Origin: a virus
Direction: 5' to 3' (one strand)
DNA: 64,000 nt
IMG/VR virus record: IMGVR_UViG_3300025009_000050
Location: 1-64,000 of that record
The notes below the pieces were generated by a model. The model was not told the DNA's origin and searched no databases. It worked only from the letters and a program-made list of their open reading frames with translations. Shown piece by piece: positions 20,348 through 30,231 of the stretch. Made by a program: the position numbers and the translations under genes. The stretch's first letter is position 1, and every line of letters starts with the position of its first letter.

Positions 20348-20765
20348 CGTAGTCTTTGTCCGTCTACCACACGGATCACTAACTGAACTTTACTTAAAAC
20401 TTGATCTTGCCAAAGAACTAGGTGGCTCTGTAAAATTTATGTTCTACAGAGCCACATGTCGCATGGCAATCATAGTAGATAACAATGAATGCAATGAATT
20501 TGTAAGTGTGATTACTGGATTGGAGGATGATGAAGATTCATTAAGATTCATAGAATTTATAAGAAAACACACACTATCAATCAGCAAAGATCAAATCATA
20601 GGCTTACTTCATCCGAATGAATGGTGTGCACGCAAAGGGGAAAGCGTAGAGAGAGATCTCATAATACTGAATGAGATTTCCACTGAGTTTAGTATACCAA
20701 TAATTCCACTCAGTGATACTAGACGTGAACTCTTGGAGGTGTACCATAATGGTATCCATACGTGA
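20340..20765 (+). CDS. Hypothetical protein, 141 aa
   Basis: ATG 20340 with AAGGTGG upstream. Alpha/beta protein with GSLTELYLKLDLAKELGGS and a helical C-terminus. It overlaps the nucleotidyltransferase gene by 17 nt, so the two are probably co-translated. Not recognised. Confidence 0.68.
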   Translation: MNNVVFVRLPHGSLTELYLKLDLAKELGGSVKFMFYRATCRMAIIVDNNECNEFVSVITGLEDDEDSLRFIEFIRKHTLSISKDQIIGLLHPNEWCARKGESVERDLIILNEISTEFSIPIIPLSDTRRELLEVYHNGIHT

Positions 20766-21495
20766 TGTAAGCTTTACTATCCCAAATGAACTTAGAATTG
20801 TTATAAATCTTCTTAATCTGTACTCATTGCCAAACGGAGATCCATACTCAATAGTCGGTGGTTACATCAGAGACTTAATTCTTGATGGTAACCCTCGTGA
20901 TATTGATATTTGTTATTATGAACGATCACTTCTAGATAGTTATATAATAAGAAATAATCAAATCCGTTATGAGCAGGTTAGGAATAAAACGATACAATAC
21001 CTTTTATTCCACGGGATTGAAATACCTATTGATTGGGTACCATGTAATACATTACTGCCATACCCACCTAGATTTGACTTTACAATTAATGAGGTGGCTT
21101 TATTCCCTGATGGAAGATTAATAGCCTGCCCTCAAACATGGCTTGATCTTGAAACAAGAATTCTAAGATTAAGGGAGGAAAAAAATCCAACAACCAACAT
21201 AGTGTTAAGGGCTTGTAGATTCATAGTAACCTGTAACTTGAAACCTTGTAATAGTACAGTAAAAGCAATTAAAGAAGCTATGGTTAATAAAAAATTAAAC
21301 CAGATTACTCTTACTAATCAGTTACAAAATGCTGAAAATACTGGTATACTATATGAAGTATTTGAGTTAATGAGATTCTTCAATATCCCTATAAATGGTT
21401 TTAAGAGTGGCATCTCACTCCTTGAATACCTACTAGACAAGGAAAGAAATAGCCATCTTGATATAGGAGATGAAGAGTACAATGAAATATACTAG
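20749..21495 (+). CDS. CCA-adding/poly(A) polymerase-type nucleotidyltransferase
   Basis: 248 residues; ATG 20749 after TTGGAGG. SIVGGYIRDLILDGNPRDID (residues 34-53) is the class II nucleotidyltransferase head: GG at 37-38, RD at 41-42 and the catalytic DxD at 51-53. WLDLETRILRLRE and a later RACRFIVTC match the next motifs of the family. Bacterial CCA enzymes are near 400 residues; this one lacks most of the C-terminal body. Likely substrate: 3' ends of tRNA, consistent with tRNA-like genes without CCA here and with RtcB. Confidence 0.78.
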   Translation: MVSIRDVSFTIPNELRIVINLLNLYSLPNGDPYSIVGGYIRDLILDGNPRDIDICYYERSLLDSYIIRNNQIRYEQVRNKTIQYLLFHGIEIPIDWVPCNTLLPYPPRFDFTINEVALFPDGRLIACPQTWLDLETRILRLREEKNPTTNIVLRACRFIVTCNLKPCNSTVKAIKEAMVNKKLNQITLTNQLQNAENTGILYEVFELMRFFNIPINGFKSGISLLEYLLDKERNSHLDIGDEEYNEIY

Positions 21496-21506: not shown

Positions 21507-22091
21507 ATGAAAGTTAAATTTATTTATAAGTCTAAAAAATTTAAACATCCTGAAATCGCTGAAGCGATTAAGGAAGTGTTTGCCCATGTAGCTAGTACTA
21601 AATGGGCTAGATACTTCCCTAAGAAAGTAAAAGTTTTGTTTTTTAAGAATGCATTCTCTCATGATAATAGGTCTCCAGGTATGATGCGAGTAGACTGTTT
21701 CGGGCCTAAATTCTTTTTTGCTGTGGATGTGCTGCATGCAATGCATACTTTAGAGCCATATATTGATGTTGCTATTAATAATGGCAATGTGGTTTATGAT
21801 CATGTTCATGCAGCAAAATTAACTGCAGCACATGAAATTGGACACTGGCTGGTGTTATGTAGCTTAGCTAAATACCCTCAATTTGGAGGACATCCGATGG
21901 CGACTCATATATTAATGTCGGATACTTATTTCAGACATAGTGCTGAAAGTCACATCAATAAGCGAGACATAATGAATACTCAATTATCATATAGGAACGT
22001 ATTTGCTGAACGTTGCTCCGATAGGTTTGCAAGATTTATCGTAGCAAGAATGGGAGGTGCGGGTATTGAGAACACCAAACAGGACACCTAA
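21507..22091 (+). CDS. HEIGH-motif zinc metalloprotease-like protein
   Basis: 194 residues, ATG 21507 after GGGAGG. AAHEIGHWLVL places the HExxH zinc motif at residues 109-113; a candidate third ligand is Glu in the later ERCSDRFARF stretch. The gluzincin/metzincin-like core is embedded in a basic protein without signal peptide, so it would act in the cytoplasm. Substrate unknown. Confidence 0.75.
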   Translation: MKVKFIYKSKKFKHPEIAEAIKEVFAHVASTKWARYFPKKVKVLFFKNAFSHDNRSPGMMRVDCFGPKFFFAVDVLHAMHTLEPYIDVAINNGNVVYDHVHAAKLTAAHEIGHWLVLCSLAKYPQFGGHPMATHILMSDTYFRHSAESHINKRDIMNTQLSYRNVFAERCSDRFARFIVARMGGAGIENTKQDT

Positions 22092-22410
22092 TACTCCAAA
22101 AGAGGCAAAGCATTTTTTAAACTTTACCAAAAAGAATTTTTATTTTGGGTTAGGTACTGGCGCATTTAATTTATTCATGCTATTAGTCTGGGTACACTTG
22201 ACGTATAAGGCAATGATTGAAGAAAACATAGTGCTGACCATCATAAGCATAGGATTCCTAGCACTAACTATATTCTTTTTCATAATAAATTGTCGCCAAA
22301 TCTCTGAAAAATTTATAATGATTGATGTAGCTAGTGCGGTATTAAAGGCTGTTGAATATAGAACAGCTGAAAAATTCAAAAAACTTGAAAAGAGGTTTAA
22401 AAATGATTAA
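22066..22410 (+). CDS. Two-helix membrane protein, 114 aa
   Basis: TTG 22066 lies 8 nt after GGGAGG; the GTG at 22057 is inside the ribosome binding site. Polar N-terminus with Thr/Pro, two transmembrane helices (about 27-48 and 53-75), and a basic C-terminal helix. Overlaps both neighbours. Confidence 0.65.
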   Translation: MRTPNRTPNTPKEAKHFLNFTKKNFYFGLGTGAFNLFMLLVWVHLTYKAMIEENIVLTIISIGFLALTIFFFIINCRQISEKFIMIDVASAVLKAVEYRTAEKFKKLEKRFKND

Positions 22411-23092
22411 TGGAAGTGAGTACGAAGTAGTAGTAAAGTTGAAGCTTGAAAACTTTGAAACCGAAAATGAGGTTAGAGAAGCTATCGACTCTATAATTAA
22501 GCCAGGCTTAACAACTTACAAGGCATCTTATGGGGATATGATGGGTAAGAATGCGTCAATAACTAATGTAAATATGACACTTTCAGTACCTCCCTTTGAA
22601 GCTCTTAACCAAATGATTGCTGCAAAACTTTTAAGTCACAAGATGACACAAAATGATAGAGCTGAAGGAGCTTACAAAACAAGAGGCAGAATTGCAGGCG
22701 CGTTCTATCTTGTAGAATCAGTATTAACTCCTGTGCTACATCAAGTACATGCTAACAACTATTTTGAGTTTTATCACAAATCTGGCACTAGTCAGTATCT
22801 GATTCGTGATGTACTTGGCAATGTCGTTCATGACTTTACTGAAATACCGGACAAGGTGATGGAACTCTCTCAATTCTTCATGACTCTGGTAAATTACTAC
22901 AAGCTAAATAAAGACCAGCTTAGTGTAATTGAAACCGGAAGAGCCGATATTACGGAGATCGATCCGGATATCATGGATTATACAACTGATGCTGTTATGG
23001 AAAGCAAGTCAAAAGTAATTTTGCAAGCTATTCCTACTGCTGTATCACCTACCAATCCATTTGTAGGTATGTTAACACCAGTGAAAGAATAG
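22403..23092 (+). CDS. Hypothetical protein, 229 aa
   Basis: ATG 22403 after AGAGG. N-terminal beta-rich segment (SEYEVVVKLKLENF), helical centre with YKTRGRIAGAFYLVES, acidic C-terminus. Directly upstream of the MoxR gene with 10 nt between, so likely the first gene of the ubiquitin-like operon. No family recognised. Confidence 0.7.
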   Translation: MINGSEYEVVVKLKLENFETENEVREAIDSIIKPGLTTYKASYGDMMGKNASITNVNMTLSVPPFEALNQMIAAKLLSHKMTQNDRAEGAYKTRGRIAGAFYLVESVLTPVLHQVHANNYFEFYHKSGTSQYLIRDVLGNVVHDFTEIPDKVMELSQFFMTLVNYYKLNKDQLSVIETGRADITEIDPDIMDYTTDAVMESKSKVILQAIPTAVSPTNPFVGMLTPVKE

Positions 23093-23102
23093 GGGGCTTT
23101 AA

Positions 23103-24323
23103 ATGCAACCCAAGGAGATTAAGAAGGCATATAGAAGATCAATGAACCAAGCTTTAGAAGCAGGCGTTGATCTTCCTGAATGGATTGATATGTCTACAGC
23201 TAAACTTAAAGAAAAGCTGAATGAAGAAATAGCTACTGGATCTATTGATCCAATGGAAGCAATGAACCTCATTATAAGACATGACCAGTTGATGAAAGAA
23301 GTCCTGGGATACGGCAAGGAACATGGACTTAAACCATTGTCTAAAAAGCAAAGATGTATTAAAGCTATTGATGACATAATGCTCGACACTAAATACGGCT
23401 TTAGAGACATAGTATTTGGCCTAAGAAAGAGGTTTGGTAGCAAAGGAGAACTACAAAAAATGATCAACGAACTAAATCCTGACACACTGAAAGATACAAT
23501 GGAAACTAGATGCAAGTATGTTTGCAGCGCTGATATCGCTATGAACATCTACGTAGCGCTTGCCCTTGGTAAGCCATTACTAGTTGAAGGACCACCTGGC
23601 TGTGGTAAAACAGAGTTAGCAAAAGTACTTTCCACAATCTTTAACACAAAGCTTATCCGGCTACAATGTTATGACGGGATCGACGCTACTCATGCACTTT
23701 ATGAGTGGAACTATCAGAAACAGATCCTTGACATACAACGTGGTAAAGGCGATGGGAATATCTTTGGTGAAGATTACTTGCTTGAAAGGCCATTACTCCA
23801 AGCATTGAGAGAAGAACCTACTCCGGTTCTACTTATTGATGAAGTGGATAAAGTCGACCAAGAGTTCGAAGCTCACCTTCTTGAAATACTGTCTGACTTT
23901 CAGGTATCAATACCTGAATATGGAACAGTAATCGCTAAGAAGATTCCGCCAGTTATCCTTACGTCTAATGGGGTAAGAGATCTTGGTGATGCACTTCGTC
24001 GTCGTTGTGTTTACCTTTGGGTCGGGTTTCCGACCATTGATAAGGAAGCAACAATCTTGATGAAAAAAACTGATACTTTGCGACCTAACACTGCTCTACA
24101 GATTGCTAGAATCATGAGTGTTATTCGTAATGAGGTCAACTTGCTCAAACAGCCTAGTGTTTCAGAAAGCCTGGACTTAGCTGCAGCCCTTACAAACATG
24201 GGCATAAGAAAAATTGAATCTCCCTTGCTTGATCAATTGACAACTCTGTTTCTTAAAAACAGAGAAGATCTGGATAAGATGCAAGAGAGAGGTGGAGCGA
24301 AATGGCTGTTGGAGCGGGCGTAA
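23103..24323 (+). CDS. MoxR-type AAA+ ATPase
   Basis: 406 residues; ATG 23103 after AGGGGGC. A helical N-terminal extension (1-135) precedes the AAA+ core: Walker A GPPGCGKT (163-170), Walker B LLIDEVDK (243-250), sensor 1 ILTSNG (about 283-288), and arginine finger region DALRRR. MoxR ATPases work with VWA-domain partners to remodel or activate protein complexes. The VWA gene follows with a 22-nt overlap, the classical pairing. The extended N-terminus is not typical of MoxR and may recognise the substrate. Confidence 0.85.
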   Translation: MQPKEIKKAYRRSMNQALEAGVDLPEWIDMSTAKLKEKLNEEIATGSIDPMEAMNLIIRHDQLMKEVLGYGKEHGLKPLSKKQRCIKAIDDIMLDTKYGFRDIVFGLRKRFGSKGELQKMINELNPDTLKDTMETRCKYVCSADIAMNIYVALALGKPLLVEGPPGCGKTELAKVLSTIFNTKLIRLQCYDGIDATHALYEWNYQKQILDIQRGKGDGNIFGEDYLLERPLLQALREEPTPVLLIDEVDKVDQEFEAHLLEILSDFQVSIPEYGTVIAKKIPPVILTSNGVRDLGDALRRRCVYLWVGFPTIDKEATILMKKTDTLRPNTALQIARIMSVIRNEVNLLKQPSVSESLDLAAALTNMGIRKIESPLLDQLTTLFLKNREDLDKMQERGGAKWLLERA

Positions 24324-25180
24324 GAGACGCCCACCTAGACTTTTGGAACTGGATGACAAATACCAACCAGCAACAGCAGTCGCAGGTACAAAGTAAACCA
24401 GGTGATGAGGATGGGCCGGAAGGCCCACCTGGACAACCTGGGCAACCTGGAGCAGGAAAAAGTGATGGCAATCTTACGAGACCTAATATACATGAAGACG
24501 AGGTACTTAAGGCACGTAGAAATATGCGGAAAATTGCCAGACAGATCATTACAGCAATGTCTCGTCATCGCAAGGAAAGTAAGAAAATGGCTATGATCAA
24601 TTTCCGTAAGACTATAAACAATGCAAAGTCTACTGGTGGTATACCAATTCAGATCAGCTGGAAGGTTAAAAAAATTCATAAGCCTAGACTACTAGTACTT
24701 TTAGATACGTCAGGCTCAATGGATCGACATGCTAAAACATTGACTTTAATTTGTCAGGCAGTCGGTCAGGAGATCTCTAAGTTTGAGCTATTTATATTTT
24801 CAAATAAGCTCGAATATGTAACCAAGGATATTAGGACTGACTGGAGAGAGACATTGACTAATCTCGAAAGAAGACAACAATGGGGCGGTGGAACTGATTT
24901 GCCCAAAGCCCTTAAAAAGCTATTAAAAGATTATCATAATAAATTGTCTCCTCAAACTGTTGTATTTATCATGTCTGACCTCGATACACGTGGTTCAGAA
25001 GAAGCACCTGGACTTGTTGAGGAAGTAAGAAGAAAGAGTAAGAGTCTGTATATATTCAATCCTGATGAATACGAATATAAACATTATGAGAATGCCTATG
25101 AAGGCAAAGCAACCAAAATGTTTCTGACTCCTACACTTGAAGATATGGCAAATGCTGTTAAGCAAGCTTGTCTTAAGTAA
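24302..25180 (+). CDS. VWA (CoxE-like) domain protein, MoxR partner
   Basis: 292 residues; ATG 24302 with AGGTGGAG, overlapping moxR. Residues 20-60 are a Gln-rich and collagen-like linker (GPEGPPGQPGQPGAG). The VWA domain has an intact metal site: DTSGSM (135-140), GGGTD (about 193-197) and MSDLD (about 224-228). It would bind ligand proteins through the metal, under control of the MoxR ATPase. Placed next to ubiquitin-like and E1-like genes, it may handle modified substrates. Confidence 0.82.
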   Translation: MAVGAGVRDAHLDFWNWMTNTNQQQQSQVQSKPGDEDGPEGPPGQPGQPGAGKSDGNLTRPNIHEDEVLKARRNMRKIARQIITAMSRHRKESKKMAMINFRKTINNAKSTGGIPIQISWKVKKIHKPRLLVLLDTSGSMDRHAKTLTLICQAVGQEISKFELFIFSNKLEYVTKDIRTDWRETLTNLERRQQWGGGTDLPKALKKLLKDYHNKLSPQTVVFIMSDLDTRGSEEAPGLVEEVRRKSKSLYIFNPDEYEYKHYENAYEGKATKMFLTPTLEDMANAVKQACLK

Positions 25181-25263
25181 TAAAGCAGAGGTAGGACCGC
25201 AATGGTCGGGATAAAGCTGGAAGGTGGGAACCAGCTAATTTAAAAATTTGGAGGAATGTTTAA
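25181..25263 (+). other. 83-nt leader before the ubiquitin-like gene
   Basis: Contains two small hairpins (GGACCGCAATGGTC and AGCTGG...CCAGCT) and the ribosome binding site TTGGAGG. A short resemblance to the T-box sequence (AGGTAGGACCGC) is probably chance. Confidence 0.3.
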
Positions 25264-25644
25264 GTGAGAACAGTTCAGTATGCAGGTAACAATTTGGTAA
25301 TCGAAGATGACACTATGTCCCTGGCTCAAATTAAAGAGTCTATGGCTGAAATTTTTCCGGAGCTGCAAAATGCTACTCCAACCCAAGAAGGCGAGATCAT
25401 CAAATTCGAGGTTAAGGCTGGTACCAAAGGTACTCGTACAGTTCAATACGCAGGCAACAACCTCGTTATTGAGGATGACACAATGACCCTGGCTCAGATC
25501 AAGGAATCCATGGCTGAGATCTTCCCTGAACTTCAAAATGCTACTCCAACCCAAGAAGGCGAGATTGTTAAGTTTGAAGTTAAAGCTGGTACCAAAGGTC
25601 TCTTCTCTCGCTTCTTGCAAGCCATCGCTAAGCTGCGTGGTTAA
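25264..25644 (+). CDS. Tandem ubiquitin-like (PRTRC protein C-like) protein
   Basis: 126 residues from GTG 25264 (TTGGAGG upstream). Two 56-residue repeats (2-57 and 58-113) differ at only three positions at protein level. Each repeat ends in KAGTKG, the same GTKG end I recall for PRTRC system protein C, a ubiquitin-like small protein. A 13-residue tail ends AKLRG, recalling the LRGG end of ubiquitin. Being followed by B-like, JAMM and ThiF genes, it is the likely modifier of this system: activated by ThiF at a C-terminal Gly and trimmed by the JAMM protease. The C-terminal Gly is already exposed, without a processing extension. Confidence 0.75.
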   Translation: MRTVQYAGNNLVIEDDTMSLAQIKESMAEIFPELQNATPTQEGEIIKFEVKAGTKGTRTVQYAGNNLVIEDDTMTLAQIKESMAEIFPELQNATPTQEGEIVKFEVKAGTKGLFSRFLQAIAKLRG

Positions 25645-25652
25645 GTCTAGTT

Positions 25653-25674
25653 ATGGTGGGCTTTTGCCCACCAT
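25653..25674 (+). other. Hairpin after the ubiquitin-like gene
   Basis: ATGGTGGGC-TTTT-GCCCACCAT, a perfect 9-bp stem, 8 nt after the stop. No T-run. It could stabilise the upstream mRNA, giving more of the small modifier than of downstream enzymes. Confidence 0.6.
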
Positions 25675-25705
25675 TAACAGGTAAATATGTTACGGTGGTG
25701 TTTAT

Positions 25706-25963
25706 ATGTCAACTGAAAACTTAGCTAAAAACTTACTTCATCTGCCCAACTACGATTATTTACCTATTGAGGTAAGGATAGTAGTTGATAAAGTAATTAA
25801 TGCTACAAATGCCAATGATTTAATGAAAGTGCCCTTAGACGACATACTCAAAGCTCATAAAGAAGTAGTAAACCGACAGCCTGTAGTCATAAATCAAATA
25901 TCAGAACTTGTCGAAAAGATCAAAAGAATCCCTGCTATTGTGGCAAGCTCAGACTATATATAG
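25706..25963 (+). CDS. Small helical protein in the ubiquitin-like operon, 85 aa
   Basis: ATG 25706 after GGTGGTG. All-helical sequence (NLAKNLLHLPNYDYLPIEVR, LKAHKEVVNRQPVV). Not recognised. Conserved position between the modifier and the next gene would suggest a structural partner. Confidence 0.65.
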   Translation: MSTENLAKNLLHLPNYDYLPIEVRIVVDKVINATNANDLMKVPLDDILKAHKEVVNRQPVVINQISELVEKIKRIPAIVASSDYI

Positions 25964-25978
25964 AAAGGAGGAACAGAA

Positions 25979-27211
25979 ATTAATACTTCTGTAGAAATCC
26001 TACGTCGTGCTGACTTCATAGAACTTGTGAAAATTGGCAGACAGAAAGGTATTGAGAAGTTTGCTGAGAATATTGAAATTCCAATTGATATCGCAGAATT
26101 CAGTACACTTATCAAAAAGCTAAGTAAGGAATTAATCATATCATTAATACCAGGATGTTATGTCCGTCAAAATGACAATGATTTCTCTATAAGATTTGAA
26201 GGAGAAATCTTTGACATGATTAAGATGTTGGAGGACTCTATTCATATTTATAAGTTCCCATCACCAAGAATTGCACATGTTCTATTGGAGCTAAACATAG
26301 CTATAAGTGGATTCCATGATACAAGAATCCGCAATGGGAAGAGATACATTTATATCCCATTGGACTTAGACTCTATGTATCTTCGTCATCAGCGCGTCTT
26401 ATCCAACTCATTGGCAGGAGTTATGAATATGGGTGTTGTGCTAGACAAACTTAAGCAATGTCATGACGAATTAAGCGGTGACATCCAAGCGTTCATACAA
26501 AAGAAGAAAGATAAGCTTGCTGAATTGCAAAAAATGCAGCGTGAAATAGCTGAACGCAAGAAGACACAAATAGTTGAAGCTGTTAGGATTCAACCTATCC
26601 CGACTCCTGAACCAAAAACGTTGATAAACTCACTTATAGATCAACTTAGCACTAAAACTATGACAATGCAAGAAAGATTGAACCAAGTGTTAGCAAAGAA
26701 TACTGGCAAAACTGCTACAGCAGATACCAGATTATCAACAATCAGGAAATGGGTGCAAATAGGAGACACCGTTAGAATCATAGTAAAAACTGGCCCCAAT
26801 CTAAGGAATAGAGATTATTATATCTATCCTCCTGAAGTAGAGCTTGATATTCCGGCAGGTTATCGTCAACACCTTGGAGTGGATAGGATTGAAATTATAT
26901 TAACCGAGCCTGATCCACGACATGATACTGTTGTAAAAACTAATAGTAAACTCCACTGTAACTTCAACGAAGAACATTGGATGCCACTCAAAAACCTTTA
27001 CGAAAATGAAGTGAAGAACAATGAACCAGGATTTTACTACAAGAAGAACGGGAGCTTTGTAGTAGTTGATGAAAAGAAAAGGGAGTTCCCGTTTAAGAAC
27101 TATGAGTCTGCTGTGGAACTCATAAACATGACTGGATTAGGTTTTGATATAACGAAGGTAATGGTTTATGAAAATCCATCCGTAATAGCAGATGTAGGGG
27201 AGGAAAGCTAA
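25979..27211 (+). CDS. PRTRC F-position protein, 410 aa, apparent AUU start
   Basis: GGAGG (25967-25971) is followed at 7 nt by ATT 25979; GTG 26027 lies 48 nt further and would remove a helix. The N-terminal 130 residues are alpha/beta, a coiled coil follows (about 150-200, FIQKKKDKLAELQKMQREIA), then a Pro linker and a C-terminal beta domain. Its length and place between C-like and B-like genes match PRTRC protein F, but I see no decisive sequence motif. Its stop overlaps the next ATG. Confidence 0.65.
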   Translation: MNTSVEILRRADFIELVKIGRQKGIEKFAENIEIPIDIAEFSTLIKKLSKELIISLIPGCYVRQNDNDFSIRFEGEIFDMIKMLEDSIHIYKFPSPRIAHVLLELNIAISGFHDTRIRNGKRYIYIPLDLDSMYLRHQRVLSNSLAGVMNMGVVLDKLKQCHDELSGDIQAFIQKKKDKLAELQKMQREIAERKKTQIVEAVRIQPIPTPEPKTLINSLIDQLSTKTMTMQERLNQVLAKNTGKTATADTRLSTIRKWVQIGDTVRIIVKTGPNLRNRDYYIYPPEVELDIPAGYRQHLGVDRIEIILTEPDPRHDTVVKTNSKLHCNFNEEHWMPLKNLYENEVKNNEPGFYYKKNGSFVVVDEKKREFPFKNYESAVELINMTGLGFDITKVMVYENPSVIADVGEES

Positions 27212-27930
27212 TGAAACCACGGGCTGTATTAGAGATTCACGCAGATAGCGTGAGATTAATTGAACATGATGAAAATGGGATTTCTAAAACAAGGCAAATT
27301 TCACCGGATGGCCTTGCTCAAGCAGTTGCCAATGACTTTCGGCATGATACAGGTATCATGCCTTCTCCTCACGGAGTTGTGAGGATGATTAAGAAAAACG
27401 CTAGCACTTTGATAGTATATCAGATACCTGAAACTAGAAGGCGTATTAGTTATCAGGATGAAGGCTCTGTAGGAGTTTACAAGAATGTGCTTGTACCTAG
27501 CTGTGTATTTATATTTATTCTTAATCAACATCAAAATGGAGAATATATGTTAAGATTAAGCCATGTATATGCTGCTAAGGGTCCAATACTCATTACAACA
27601 GATACATTGTGTCGCTTCCCATTCACCAATGTTCAGGACGATGCTAATATATGTTGGGGTGGACATAGCACAGCAAAACAATGGAGGAATCTTGCCGGTA
27701 TATCTGGGTTCGTTGAGCAATTCTTTAGCTCAAATTTTAATGCGCACCTTGAGAACAGTAACTTCTATCCGTTGGCTGTGCAAACACCTAATGGCAGGAC
27801 AGTAAGGGTTGACAGGGTTCATAGCCTAATTAAACATCTTGATGGTGTTGCTACATTCCCGTATGAAATCCTTAAACCGTTAAGGTCTGTAGCAAGCATA
27901 ATTCAAAATTTGGAAGGAGAATTGAGATAA
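27211..27930 (+). CDS. PRTRC system protein B-like
   Basis: 239 residues; ATG 27211 with GGGGAGG. The first part (LEIHADSVRLIEHDENGIS) is strand-rich; the C-terminal half has ICWGGHSTAKQWRNLAG and VEQFFSSNFNAHL, a pattern I recall from PRTRC protein B (Cys/Trp-Gly box then a W...FF...SxF helix). B proteins occur with JAMM and ThiF genes in PRTRC cassettes and have no settled biochemical role. Coupled to both neighbours by 1-nt overlaps. Confidence 0.62.
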   Translation: MKPRAVLEIHADSVRLIEHDENGISKTRQISPDGLAQAVANDFRHDTGIMPSPHGVVRMIKKNASTLIVYQIPETRRRISYQDEGSVGVYKNVLVPSCVFIFILNQHQNGEYMLRLSHVYAAKGPILITTDTLCRFPFTNVQDDANICWGGHSTAKQWRNLAGISGFVEQFFSSNFNAHLENSNFYPLAVQTPNGRTVRVDRVHSLIKHLDGVATFPYEILKPLRSVASIIQNLEGELR

Positions 27931-29357
27931 TGTCATTAAAAGATGAGCTGGAAGCTCAGGTTAGAGAGAAAGAAGCACAAAAGGCTGCAAGTAAGGCTGC
28001 ATTAATCAGACAAGCTGCTGATTATCTTATTGATGTTCCTGCAGAAGGTCTTACCAAGGCTGTTAACTACATCATGACTGCGGATGGTACAAAGATGGTA
28101 CGGCACACTGGAATGGGTGACTTTGTAATGATACCGGAGACTGTTCCCGGCTTACAAAAACTTAAGTTAGGCTTGAATCTGTCCATTCCTAAGATTCCGT
28201 TTCATATGATTTGCCAGATCCTGAACTTCTTTATAGCTGTTCATGAGAAGGACAAAACCGAAGCGTCTGCTCTAATCTTCTGGGATCAGGACACAAAAGA
28301 GCATTTCATTTACATCCCTGAACAGAAAAACTCTGGTGGACTTTCAGAGTTCCATGAAGATCCGGAAGTAAATCGCTTACGCCTTGATAAAGTTCCTGTA
28401 ATGGAAATCCACAGCCATCATACTATGGGAGCTTTCTGGTCTGGTACTGACAATGCCAATGAAAATGCAGCTCAGTGCTACATGGTATTTGGTACTATCA
28501 CTACTAGCCCAACTTACCTCACACGTTATGCGTGTGCTGGTCAGCAAGTTAATATCCCCATATGGGAAATCGTAGAGAAACCTGAGATTGCTATGAATGT
28601 AGCTAACCAAAAGTATTTACTTCAGGTACCTGAGGTAATGGGTATATTCCCGAAAGTTAGCTTCCCGGAAGAGTGGATGACGAAGCTAAAAAAGCCCACA
28701 GTAGTTGGTTGGCAAGGTGGAAGAGATTATCTAACCTATGGTAATAACGGTAAAGTAACTACTTTTGGTGCTGGCGCAACTACTGAAGCCATTCCTCAAA
28801 AAAAATGGTATTTTCACGGGGCCGGGACAGACGCAGAAACAAATTCGGAAAAAAAAACTGACGGAGCAGACGTGCACAGACTGCAAACAAATGTATTGTC
28901 TGGACCCGAACACAGAGCGGATGTGCCCAATCAGAGTCGAGTAAAGAATATCATTGATTTTGTTGTGAAAAACTTTGACGATATATCTCTCTCCCAGTTG
29001 ATATTGACAGCAATGTTCTCTGGGAGAGATGTAGTGAGTCCAGTTGAAAAAGGCATTAAGTATATCAACGAAAATCCGAATATGTTTAAGCCTCAACAAG
29101 ATCTTGAAAATTGTTACACCTGTGAGCTCGCAAGCCTGTGTGAAGTATGCAGCGGTAAGTGTTGCGAATGTGATAGAATTAAAGAATGTCAGCCTATTTT
29201 AGATTTTGCAGCTAAGAAAAATCTTGAGGCTGCAAAAACTGTCGAAAGCTGTGATGGACCGGATTGTCCACATTACACCTTTTGTATGTCATGCACATTA
29301 CAGTATCGTTGTTGCGATTGTACAATCGAAGATTGTAAGAATGTGCACTTAAAATAG
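27930..29357 (+). CDS. JAMM/MPN+ isopeptidase with Cys-rich C-terminus
   Basis: 475 residues; ATG 27930 after AAGGAG. The JAMM motif is complete: MEIHSHH (158-164, HxH at 161 and 163) and SGTD (171-174), with an upstream Glu in the EASALIFWD strand. This is the active-site set of zinc deubiquitinases such as Rpn11 and of PRTRC protein A. The last 90 residues hold about 20 Cys (CYTCELASLC, CSGKCCECD, CDGPDC, CSCTLQYRCCDC-like), forming several zinc sites not usual for PRTRC A. Expected job: release or trimming of the ubiquitin-like protein. Confidence 0.8.
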   Translation: MSLKDELEAQVREKEAQKAASKAALIRQAADYLIDVPAEGLTKAVNYIMTADGTKMVRHTGMGDFVMIPETVPGLQKLKLGLNLSIPKIPFHMICQILNFFIAVHEKDKTEASALIFWDQDTKEHFIYIPEQKNSGGLSEFHEDPEVNRLRLDKVPVMEIHSHHTMGAFWSGTDNANENAAQCYMVFGTITTSPTYLTRYACAGQQVNIPIWEIVEKPEIAMNVANQKYLLQVPEVMGIFPKVSFPEEWMTKLKKPTVVGWQGGRDYLTYGNNGKVTTFGAGATTEAIPQKKWYFHGAGTDAETNSEKKTDGADVHRLQTNVLSGPEHRADVPNQSRVKNIIDFVVKNFDDISLSQLILTAMFSGRDVVSPVEKGIKYINENPNMFKPQQDLENCYTCELASLCEVCSGKCCECDRIKECQPILDFAAKKNLEAAKTVESCDGPDCPHYTFCMSCTLQYRCCDCTIEDCKNVHLK

Positions 29358-29370
29358 TAAGGAGGTAATT

Positions 29371-30231
29371 ATGTCTATACTTGAAAAGACTTACGCACTT
29401 GATTTTGATGCGGTGACCAATAACGCACCGCATCATTACATAATCATAGGTAATGGTGGCACTGGTGGATTCTTGGTACCCAATCTTGTAAGACAGATTA
29501 GTATTAAGAATTACACCCGTAAGGAAGGCCAAAAGCATATGATAACTCTTGCTGATCCGGATAAAGTTGAGGAGAAAAACTTAACTCGGCAAAACTTCAT
29601 TATGCCAGACCTGAATAAAAGTAAGGCTATGGTGCTTGCTGCCCGTTATTCAAATGCCTTCGGAACACCAATCAACGCTCATGATGCTTATGTAGAGACC
29701 AAAGCAGCATTGAAGATGCTTATGGATCTACATAAGAACTGTTATCCGATAATTATCGGTGCAGTTGATAATAATAAGACCAGGCAGTTGATAGCCGATC
29801 TGTTCTATTCCGGTGAGAGAAATATGGTATATCTTGACAGCGGCAACGAACTTTACAATGGCCAGGTAGTATTGGGAGTAAACCATAAGGGAACACTTCA
29901 GGAAGGTAATAATAAACCACATTCATTCTACATGCCTTGTGTCACTGATGTCTTCCATGATGTTATGAATGATACCAATACGAAGTTTACCACAGAATTA
30001 AGCTGTGCTGAGCGGGCTATTAGCCATCCTCAGTCTATGGCAACTAACTCAACAGCAGCAATGTTGATATTCAACTTCTGCAATGTTTTGCTTAACAACA
30101 AGGAAATGGGTGGATTAAGGGTCAATGCAGTTACATTCAATGTAAAGAACAATGGCTTTGATCCAAAACGCAATACCAAGGATCAGTTGAACTTAAGATA
30201 CATTAAGAAGCAAGCTGCTGCCGCTGGCTAA
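29371..30231 (+). CDS. ThiF/E1-like activating enzyme (PRTRC ThiF)
   Basis: 286 residues; ATG 29371 after AAGGAGG. Rossmann loop IIGNGGTGG (25-33), acidic ATP-binding LADPDKVEEKNLTRQNF (60-76) with the Arg-Gln pair, and Lys-83/85 are all typical of the E1 superfamily. SCAERAISHPQSMATNS (about 211-227) fits the later conserved block. The enzyme would adenylate the C-terminal Gly of the tandem ubiquitin-like protein. The usual pair of CxxC zinc motifs of ThiF is missing, as in PRTRC ThiF proteins. Last gene of the operon. Confidence 0.82.
   Translation: MSILEKTYALDFDAVTNNAPHHYIIIGNGGTGGFLVPNLVRQISIKNYTRKEGQKHMITLADPDKVEEKNLTRQNFIMPDLNKSKAMVLAARYSNAFGTPINAHDAYVETKAALKMLMDLHKNCYPIIIGAVDNNKTRQLIADLFYSGERNMVYLDSGNELYNGQVVLGVNHKGTLQEGNNKPHSFYMPCVTDVFHDVMNDTNTKFTTELSCAERAISHPQSMATNSTAAMLIFNFCNVLLNNKEMGGLRVNAVTFNVKNNGFDPKRNTKDQLNLRYIKKQAAAAG

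Follow-up and report, generated by a model that had tools for sequence, protein, structure and literature searches.

A type 6d operon encoding a ubiquitin-like conjugation system was predicted in bacteria in 2006 by Iyer, Burroughs and Aravind (PMC1779556). Its E2s have an absolutely conserved His downstream of the Cys, and its JAB protein has an N-terminal alpha+beta domain with a conserved Arg and Trp (PMC1779556). In the bacterial FtsH-ternary systems a MoxR-vWA pair occurs with a full ubiquitin-like (Ubl) conjugation set (PMC7159879). CoxD, a protein of the MoxR type, serves molybdenum sulfuration (PMC4240915), and the MoxR-vWA pairs of group 2.2 jumbo phages have been proposed to help virion assembly (PMC7824862). 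The operon type has been known from bacteria and plasmids since 2006; its jumbo-phage polyubiquitin form is hardly discussed in the literature that we searched, and a 2021 survey of jumbo phages makes no mention of JAB. Here we describe a cassette of this form in a 64,000-base stretch of DNA (the window), which is bases 1-64000 of the 244,052-base virus record IMGVR_UViG_3300025009_000050.

The core of the cassette lies at 25264-30231 in the order ubiquitin-like protein (Ub), small helical protein, F-position protein, E2-like protein, JAMM isopeptidase and E1-like enzyme. A MoxR AAA+ ATPase and a VWA protein are located upstream. The data suggest that the core is probably a self-contained jumbo-phage system for ubiquitin-like conjugation and deconjugation and that MoxR-VWA is a CoxD/CoxE-type pair acquired upstream of it. 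There is good support for the original prediction that the phage carries a PRTRC-related cassette for ubiquitin-like conjugation. The genes that it named are all found where it placed them, all on the + strand, but its count of eight was wrong because its own list names nine. The gene overlaps are real (22 bp for MoxR/VWA and one base each for F/E2 and E2/JAMM). Family scans against Pfam and NCBIfam covered ten proteins of the cassette region.

The modifier and its enzymes

The Ub gene (25264..25644, +) has a GTG start with GGAGG approximately 9 nt upstream. Its product was predicted to be a tandem ubiquitin-like protein, which is confirmed by matches to Prok_Ub (5.9e-8, over the gathering score) and PRTRC_C (1.1e-8). 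The precursor consists of two 56-residue units, each ending in KAGTKG, and a 14-residue tail. The final K-G is invariant in Ub domains from distant cassettes (22/22) and no other position is. Both GTKG and LRG had been put forward as ends of the modifier. GTKG stands, but LRG is the last residues of the non-conserved tail and is ruled out as a second terminus, as the tails differ in every phage (LFSRFLQAIAKLRG, LILA, MPRIVVK, ARFTKLVIKLA and others). Because non-conserved residues follow the K-G a protease would be needed, and the variability of the tail fits a tail that is removable. In an AlphaFold model of the repeat (predicted local distance difference test score, pLDDT, 86.8), strands and helix follow one another as in a beta-grasp (beta-beta-alpha-beta-beta) and the C-terminus is floppy.

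The two repeats in the window differ at 27 of approximately 36 synonymous sites in comparison with 4 of approximately 129 nonsynonymous sites. Repeats 1 and 4 of a related locus, L012, are identical in protein with 29 synonymous differences at approximately 40 sites. Protein identity between repeats from the same phage is mostly 90-100%, and their synonymous sites are saturated; across the phages compared, the proportion of nonsynonymous differences is 0-0.085 and that of synonymous differences is 0.6-1.05. The Ub proteins of different phages have only about half of their residues in common. Codon identity between repeats is at the level expected when codons are drawn at random from each phage's own usage (window, 0.49 vs 0.42, which is within chance; L012, 0.399 vs 0.393; KLEB27-3, 0.529 vs 0.550), with the exception of L007, for which there are only 15 comparable codons. 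This random-level identity gives no support to selected scrambling of codons between the repeats. Taken together, the saturated synonymous sites and the random-level codon identity indicate that the repeats are old, have not been homogenised by gene conversion and appear to be held near-identical by selection on the protein. This is the polyubiquitin pattern, and it argues for the release of each repeat as an equivalent tag.

The original prediction found no E2, but this was wrong. The gene that it called PRTRC-B-like (27211..27930, +) encodes an E2-like protein that matches Prok-E2_D above the cut-off (8.9e-15; score 55.3 bits, cut-off 25) and has a predicted N140-x7-C148 active site. P96 and C148 are invariant in 31 divergent E2 sequences from phages and prophages, and N140 is present in at least 90% of them. 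The pattern P-x(0-2)-N-x7-C occurs in 38 of 52 matches, a set that includes duplicates, a few matches that look spurious (L024 and L025) and others with a spacing of 6. The Asn-Cys spacing of N-x7-C is that of the HPN..C motif in eukaryotic (UBC) E2s. The AlphaFold model is of high confidence (pLDDT 90.9; predicted template modelling score 0.81). It starts with a helix and a beta-meander, which lead to the N..C loop, and more helices follow.

The JAMM/JAB isopeptidase (27930..29357, +) is PRTRC_A-like (1.1e-10) and matches Prok-JAB above the cut-off (5.5e-7). Its site is complete, as predicted (E111 and HSHx7SxxD, with H161, H163, S171 and D174). The N-terminal region is present, and in the alignment W118 is invariant and the Arg is not. 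The C-terminus (29112-29357) is a duplicated 16-Cys segment that the aligned related JAMMs lack; it has no Pfam match and its similarity to the PHF5A zinc knot is weak (E 0.047). The E1/ThiF-like enzyme (29371..30231, +) is also as predicted, with matches to ThiF (4.9e-12, above the cut-off) and PRTRC_ThiF (9.8e-31), and has GxGGxG at 27, NLTRQ at 70 and a candidate catalytic Cys, C212, in invariant columns.

The small helical protein (25706..25963, +) ends in -DYI. The end [FY][IV]-COOH is found in 14 of 16 syntenic small proteins, mostly as D-[FY]-I, and otherwise little is shared; in one locus (L038) Ub and the small protein form a single fusion, Ub first, joined at GIKG. The conserved end and the fusion appear to tie the small protein to the system. 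The F-position protein (26027..27211, +) is fast evolving and has the same position in close relatives.

In the reading that we favour, JAMM would cut the precursor after each GTKG and take off the tail. The ThiF-like E1 would adenylate the C-terminal Gly and hold the modifier as a thioester on C212, from which it would move to C148 of the E2, and the E2 would attach it to lysines of target proteins. JAMM would also be able to remove the modifier from targets. The small and F proteins probably confer target choice or act as a scaffold, and MoxR-VWA may act on tagged complexes or independently.

Several results weigh against this reading. A Foldseek search with the E2 model found phage homologues only and no significant solved E2 in the PDB, so the fold assignment is based on profile and topology, and the E2 profile search reached an RWD domain only at E 0.34. 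There is no invariant His downstream of the Cys in the E2 alignment, unlike in the type 6d E2s. The beta-grasp fold proposed for the modifier is borne out by the order of strands and helix, but its Foldseek matches to ubiquitin-like domains (among them ubiquitin, FUBI, USP14 UBL and TONSL UBL, template modelling scores of 0.55-0.62) have non-significant E-values. The F protein is kept by position and scarcely by sequence, with a match to L011-L014 only (E about 7e-4). Finally, a set of JAMM, E1 and Ub could also serve sulfur transfer.

Directly 3' of the Ub stop in the window there is a perfect 11-bp hairpin, TAATGGTGGGC-TTTT-GCCCACCATTA (25651..25677, no strand assigned), which was read directly. 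It lacks a T-run and may serve to stabilise the Ub message or to set it apart. In Salmonella phage Arash the Ub gene (L004:107-307, ending in TGTKG) was overlooked in the annotation and an overlapping frame is annotated instead. In Acinetobacter phage ME3 (L006:5745-9882) the JAMM is split at the HxH by approximately 2 kb with a tRNA and small open reading frames, the pattern expected of an intron that carries a homing endonuclease.

Distribution of the cassette

A tblastn search with the E1 matched eight phage records. Ub-E2-JAMM-E1 can be read in Bacillus phage KLEB27-3, Arash and Vibrio phage D69 and is interrupted in ME3. Bacillus phage-plasmids and IMG/VR contigs, the longest of about 340 kb, also have the core order. 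Because this order recurs in cultured phages and in many jumbo-phage contigs, the cassette is more than a chance arrangement. Scanning IMG/VR with a profile yielded 48 loci (E1, E2 and JAMM, 22; E1 and E2, 23; E1 and JAMM, 3) and a scan of species genomes gave 61, chiefly in Oscillospiraceae; the scan was based on E1, so cassettes with divergent E1s could be missed. Single-sequence viral scans with the ThiF protein gave no matches, and alignments were needed. An E1 match was found on 227 plasmids. A tree built from 101 E1s places the window in a clade (98/85) whose eight members are jumbo phages and Bacillus phage-plasmids, all of them with tandem Ub.

Possible targets and the MoxR-VWA pair

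The cassette could modify the phage's own virion proteins, such as the tail, during assembly. In Vibrio phage D69 it adjoins PAAR/tail genes, and in Arash the E1 and E2 genes lie beside tail-spike genes and are labelled 'structural protein', although the basis of these labels could not be confirmed. The role in virion assembly proposed for the group 2.2 MoxR-vWA pairs (PMC7824862) points the same way. In the window, however, the neighbours of the cassette are genes for tRNA repair, helicase and DNA polymerase, and we regard virion targets as possible but doubtful. We would place at the same level the explanation that proteins of replication, recombination or partition are what the cassette acts on, as may be true of plasmid PRTRC-like cassettes. 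Many homologues are located on plasmids of 100-300 kb, and neighbours elsewhere include beta clamp and Rad52 (L003), RecA and UDG (L021), and RadC and DNA polymerase III (L007 and L008), but such genes are common in large phages.

The MoxR AAA+ ATPase (23103..24323, +) is of the CoxD type. As predicted, it matches AAA_5 (8.8e-13) and the NCBIfam family MadB_ATPase (4.8e-67), and it has Walker A (GPPGCGKT at 163) and Walker B (at 243) motifs and approximately 140 additional N-terminal residues. The identity of the VWA protein (24302..25180, +) also holds: it is of the CoxE type (VWA_CoxE 6.3e-32, above the cut-off) and its metal-ion-dependent adhesion site is present (DTSGS at 135 and GGTD at 196). 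The best-matching relatives of the MoxR are CoxD-like proteins on bacterial and archaeal plasmids (46-52% identity). In the two nearest examined the order is MoxR-VWA-XdhC, in CO/xanthine-dehydrogenase operons.

The original prediction joined MoxR-VWA and the Ub genes into one unit. No relative of the MoxR was found in 24 whole records, every close sister among them, VWA_CoxE exceeded its cut-off in 0/24 of these, and among 142 loci the window's own copy is the sole MoxR beside a cassette, with the proviso that records very near this genome may be absent from the sets searched. There is no tblastn relative of the window VWA among annotated phages, and single-sequence viral scans with the MoxR protein gave no matches. 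The neighbourhood survey thus places MoxR-VWA beside ThiF-JAMM in this genome only, and a conserved unit is not upheld. In relatives, the gap between Ub and an upstream tRNA nucleotidyltransferase (CCA) gene holds other genes, which are different in each. The simplest reading is that MoxR-VWA is a private acquisition of this phage lineage, in a variable gap. Matches to the MoxR in 'Acinetobacter phage MD-2021a' (CAKLQH020000018.1, L166) were rejected as phage MoxR because their neighbours (recR, rnd and aroC) are bacterial chromosomal genes; this record looks mislabelled.

Alternatively, in this lineage only, MoxR-VWA and Ub could form a single machine for recognising tagged complexes and unfolding or releasing them, similar in principle to Cdc48. 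The pair directly adjoins the Ub cassette with tight spacing, and this adjacency is the sole link between them; the shared + orientation says little because most genes in the window run on the + strand. Bacterial FtsH-ternary MoxR-vWA systems carry a complete Ubl set (PMC7159879), so such a coupling is conceivable. Three related phages of 316-340 kb, in a clade of their own, encode a complete Lon protease, an AAA+ protein, approximately 2-6 kb upstream of the cassette (L016:2748-5090; L019:2655-4973; L018, near its start), and a search of 16 other records found no Lon. This hints at an AAA+ link, but one clade represents about one event. In addition, the sister cassettes all lack MoxR, the content of the CCA-to-Ub gap differs in each relative and the usual job of CoxD/CoxE is metal-cluster maturation. 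We consider a combined machine unlikely. More improbable still is a viral machine that tags and unfolds host or virion complexes, made by this phage from a CoxD/CoxE AAA+ remodeller and a polyubiquitin conjugation cassette. Two other candidate partners were rejected. Of the five records that have a chaperonin, a single one has it close upstream, and ClpP is a stand-alone gene at 74340-74879 of the record (292 bits), 44 kb away with non-structural neighbours. This ClpP matches head maturation protease families in PHROGs, and a search for the ClpX zinc domain found none.

Thiocarboxylate sulfur transfer instead of conjugation, an idea that had been built on the missing E2, is the least probable explanation and would be surprising: ThiF, Gly-ended beta-grasp proteins and JAMM do occur in sulfur assimilation clusters (PMC1779556) and CoxD works in molybdenum sulfuration (PMC4240915), but the cassette includes an E2-like gene with an invariant Cys, its Ub is in tandem repeats and there is no sulfur-transfer domain in the ten cassette-region proteins.

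If the core is a conjugation and deconjugation system, as we favour, phages write and erase their own ubiquitin-like code. By standard masses, trypsin would trim a tag ending in -KG to a single Gly on the target lysine. The added +57.02 Da is also the mass of iodoacetamide alkylation, and routine proteomics could therefore have missed the tag. The cultured phages KLEB27-3 and Vibrio D69 put the question within direct experimental reach.

The CCA gene (tRNA nucleotidyltransferase/poly(A)-polymerase-like; 20713..21495, +; PolyA_pol 3.7e-4, slightly under the cut-off) is a syntenic anchor; L012 and KLEB27-3 have homologues of it, likewise upstream of their cassettes. Between it and the MoxR there is a 194-residue protein (21507..22091, +) with no family match in the Pfam and NCBIfam scans; a HEIGH (HExxH) motif was read directly, and it may be a metallopeptidase. 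The orphan protein upstream of the MoxR (22403..23092, +) belongs to no convincing family, and a threshold as loose as E 1 gave no match in phages. The genes in the window include RtcB, a family-C DNA polymerase, an anaerobic ribonucleotide reductase and a UvsX-like gene, from which we infer that the host is probably anaerobic or facultative.

Comparison with described systems

The cassette has significant matches to the PRTRC families (TIGR03735-03738) for Ub (C), the E2-like protein (B), JAMM (A) and E1 (ThiF), but all are below the curated cut-offs (ThiF, 106.9 bits against 144.75; A, 41.4 against 101.8; B, 48.3 against 131.45; and C, 35.1 against 45.95). There is no NCBIfam or Pfam match to the ParB-related or PRTRC D, E and F families in the ten proteins. 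In contrast with PRTRC, the phage cassette has a tandem Ub and MoxR-VWA upstream.

With the type 6d operon (PMC1779556) it shares a separate Gly-ended Ub, a helical protein, a Cys-bearing E2, an adjacent E1 and a JAB that has an N-terminal region. It differs in that the E2 lacks the conserved downstream His, the modifier is a polyubiquitin precursor, the small and F proteins are extra and the cassette is phage-borne.

A MoxR-vWA pair adjoining E1, E2, Ubl and JAB is shared with the FtsH-ternary systems (PMC7159879). In those systems, however, the Ubl is fused to the E2 and EAD1, and FtsH and a RING E3 are present, whereas the phage Ub and E2 are separate and no FtsH, RING or EAD match was found among the ten proteins. 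The overlapping gene pair, with a CoxE-type VWA directly after a CoxD-type MoxR, is that of CoxD/CoxE (PMC3471820, PMC4240915), but the phage MoxR has an extra N-terminal region; there is no match to XdhC or molybdo-hydroxylase genes in the ten neighbours scanned. The group 2.2 pairs (PMC7824862) are also jumbo-phage MoxR-vWA pairs, but their vWA is part of a fusion with a metallopeptidase. In summary, the parts, and even their pairing in principle, are already known; a phage polyubiquitin cassette with MoxR-VWA upstream is new.

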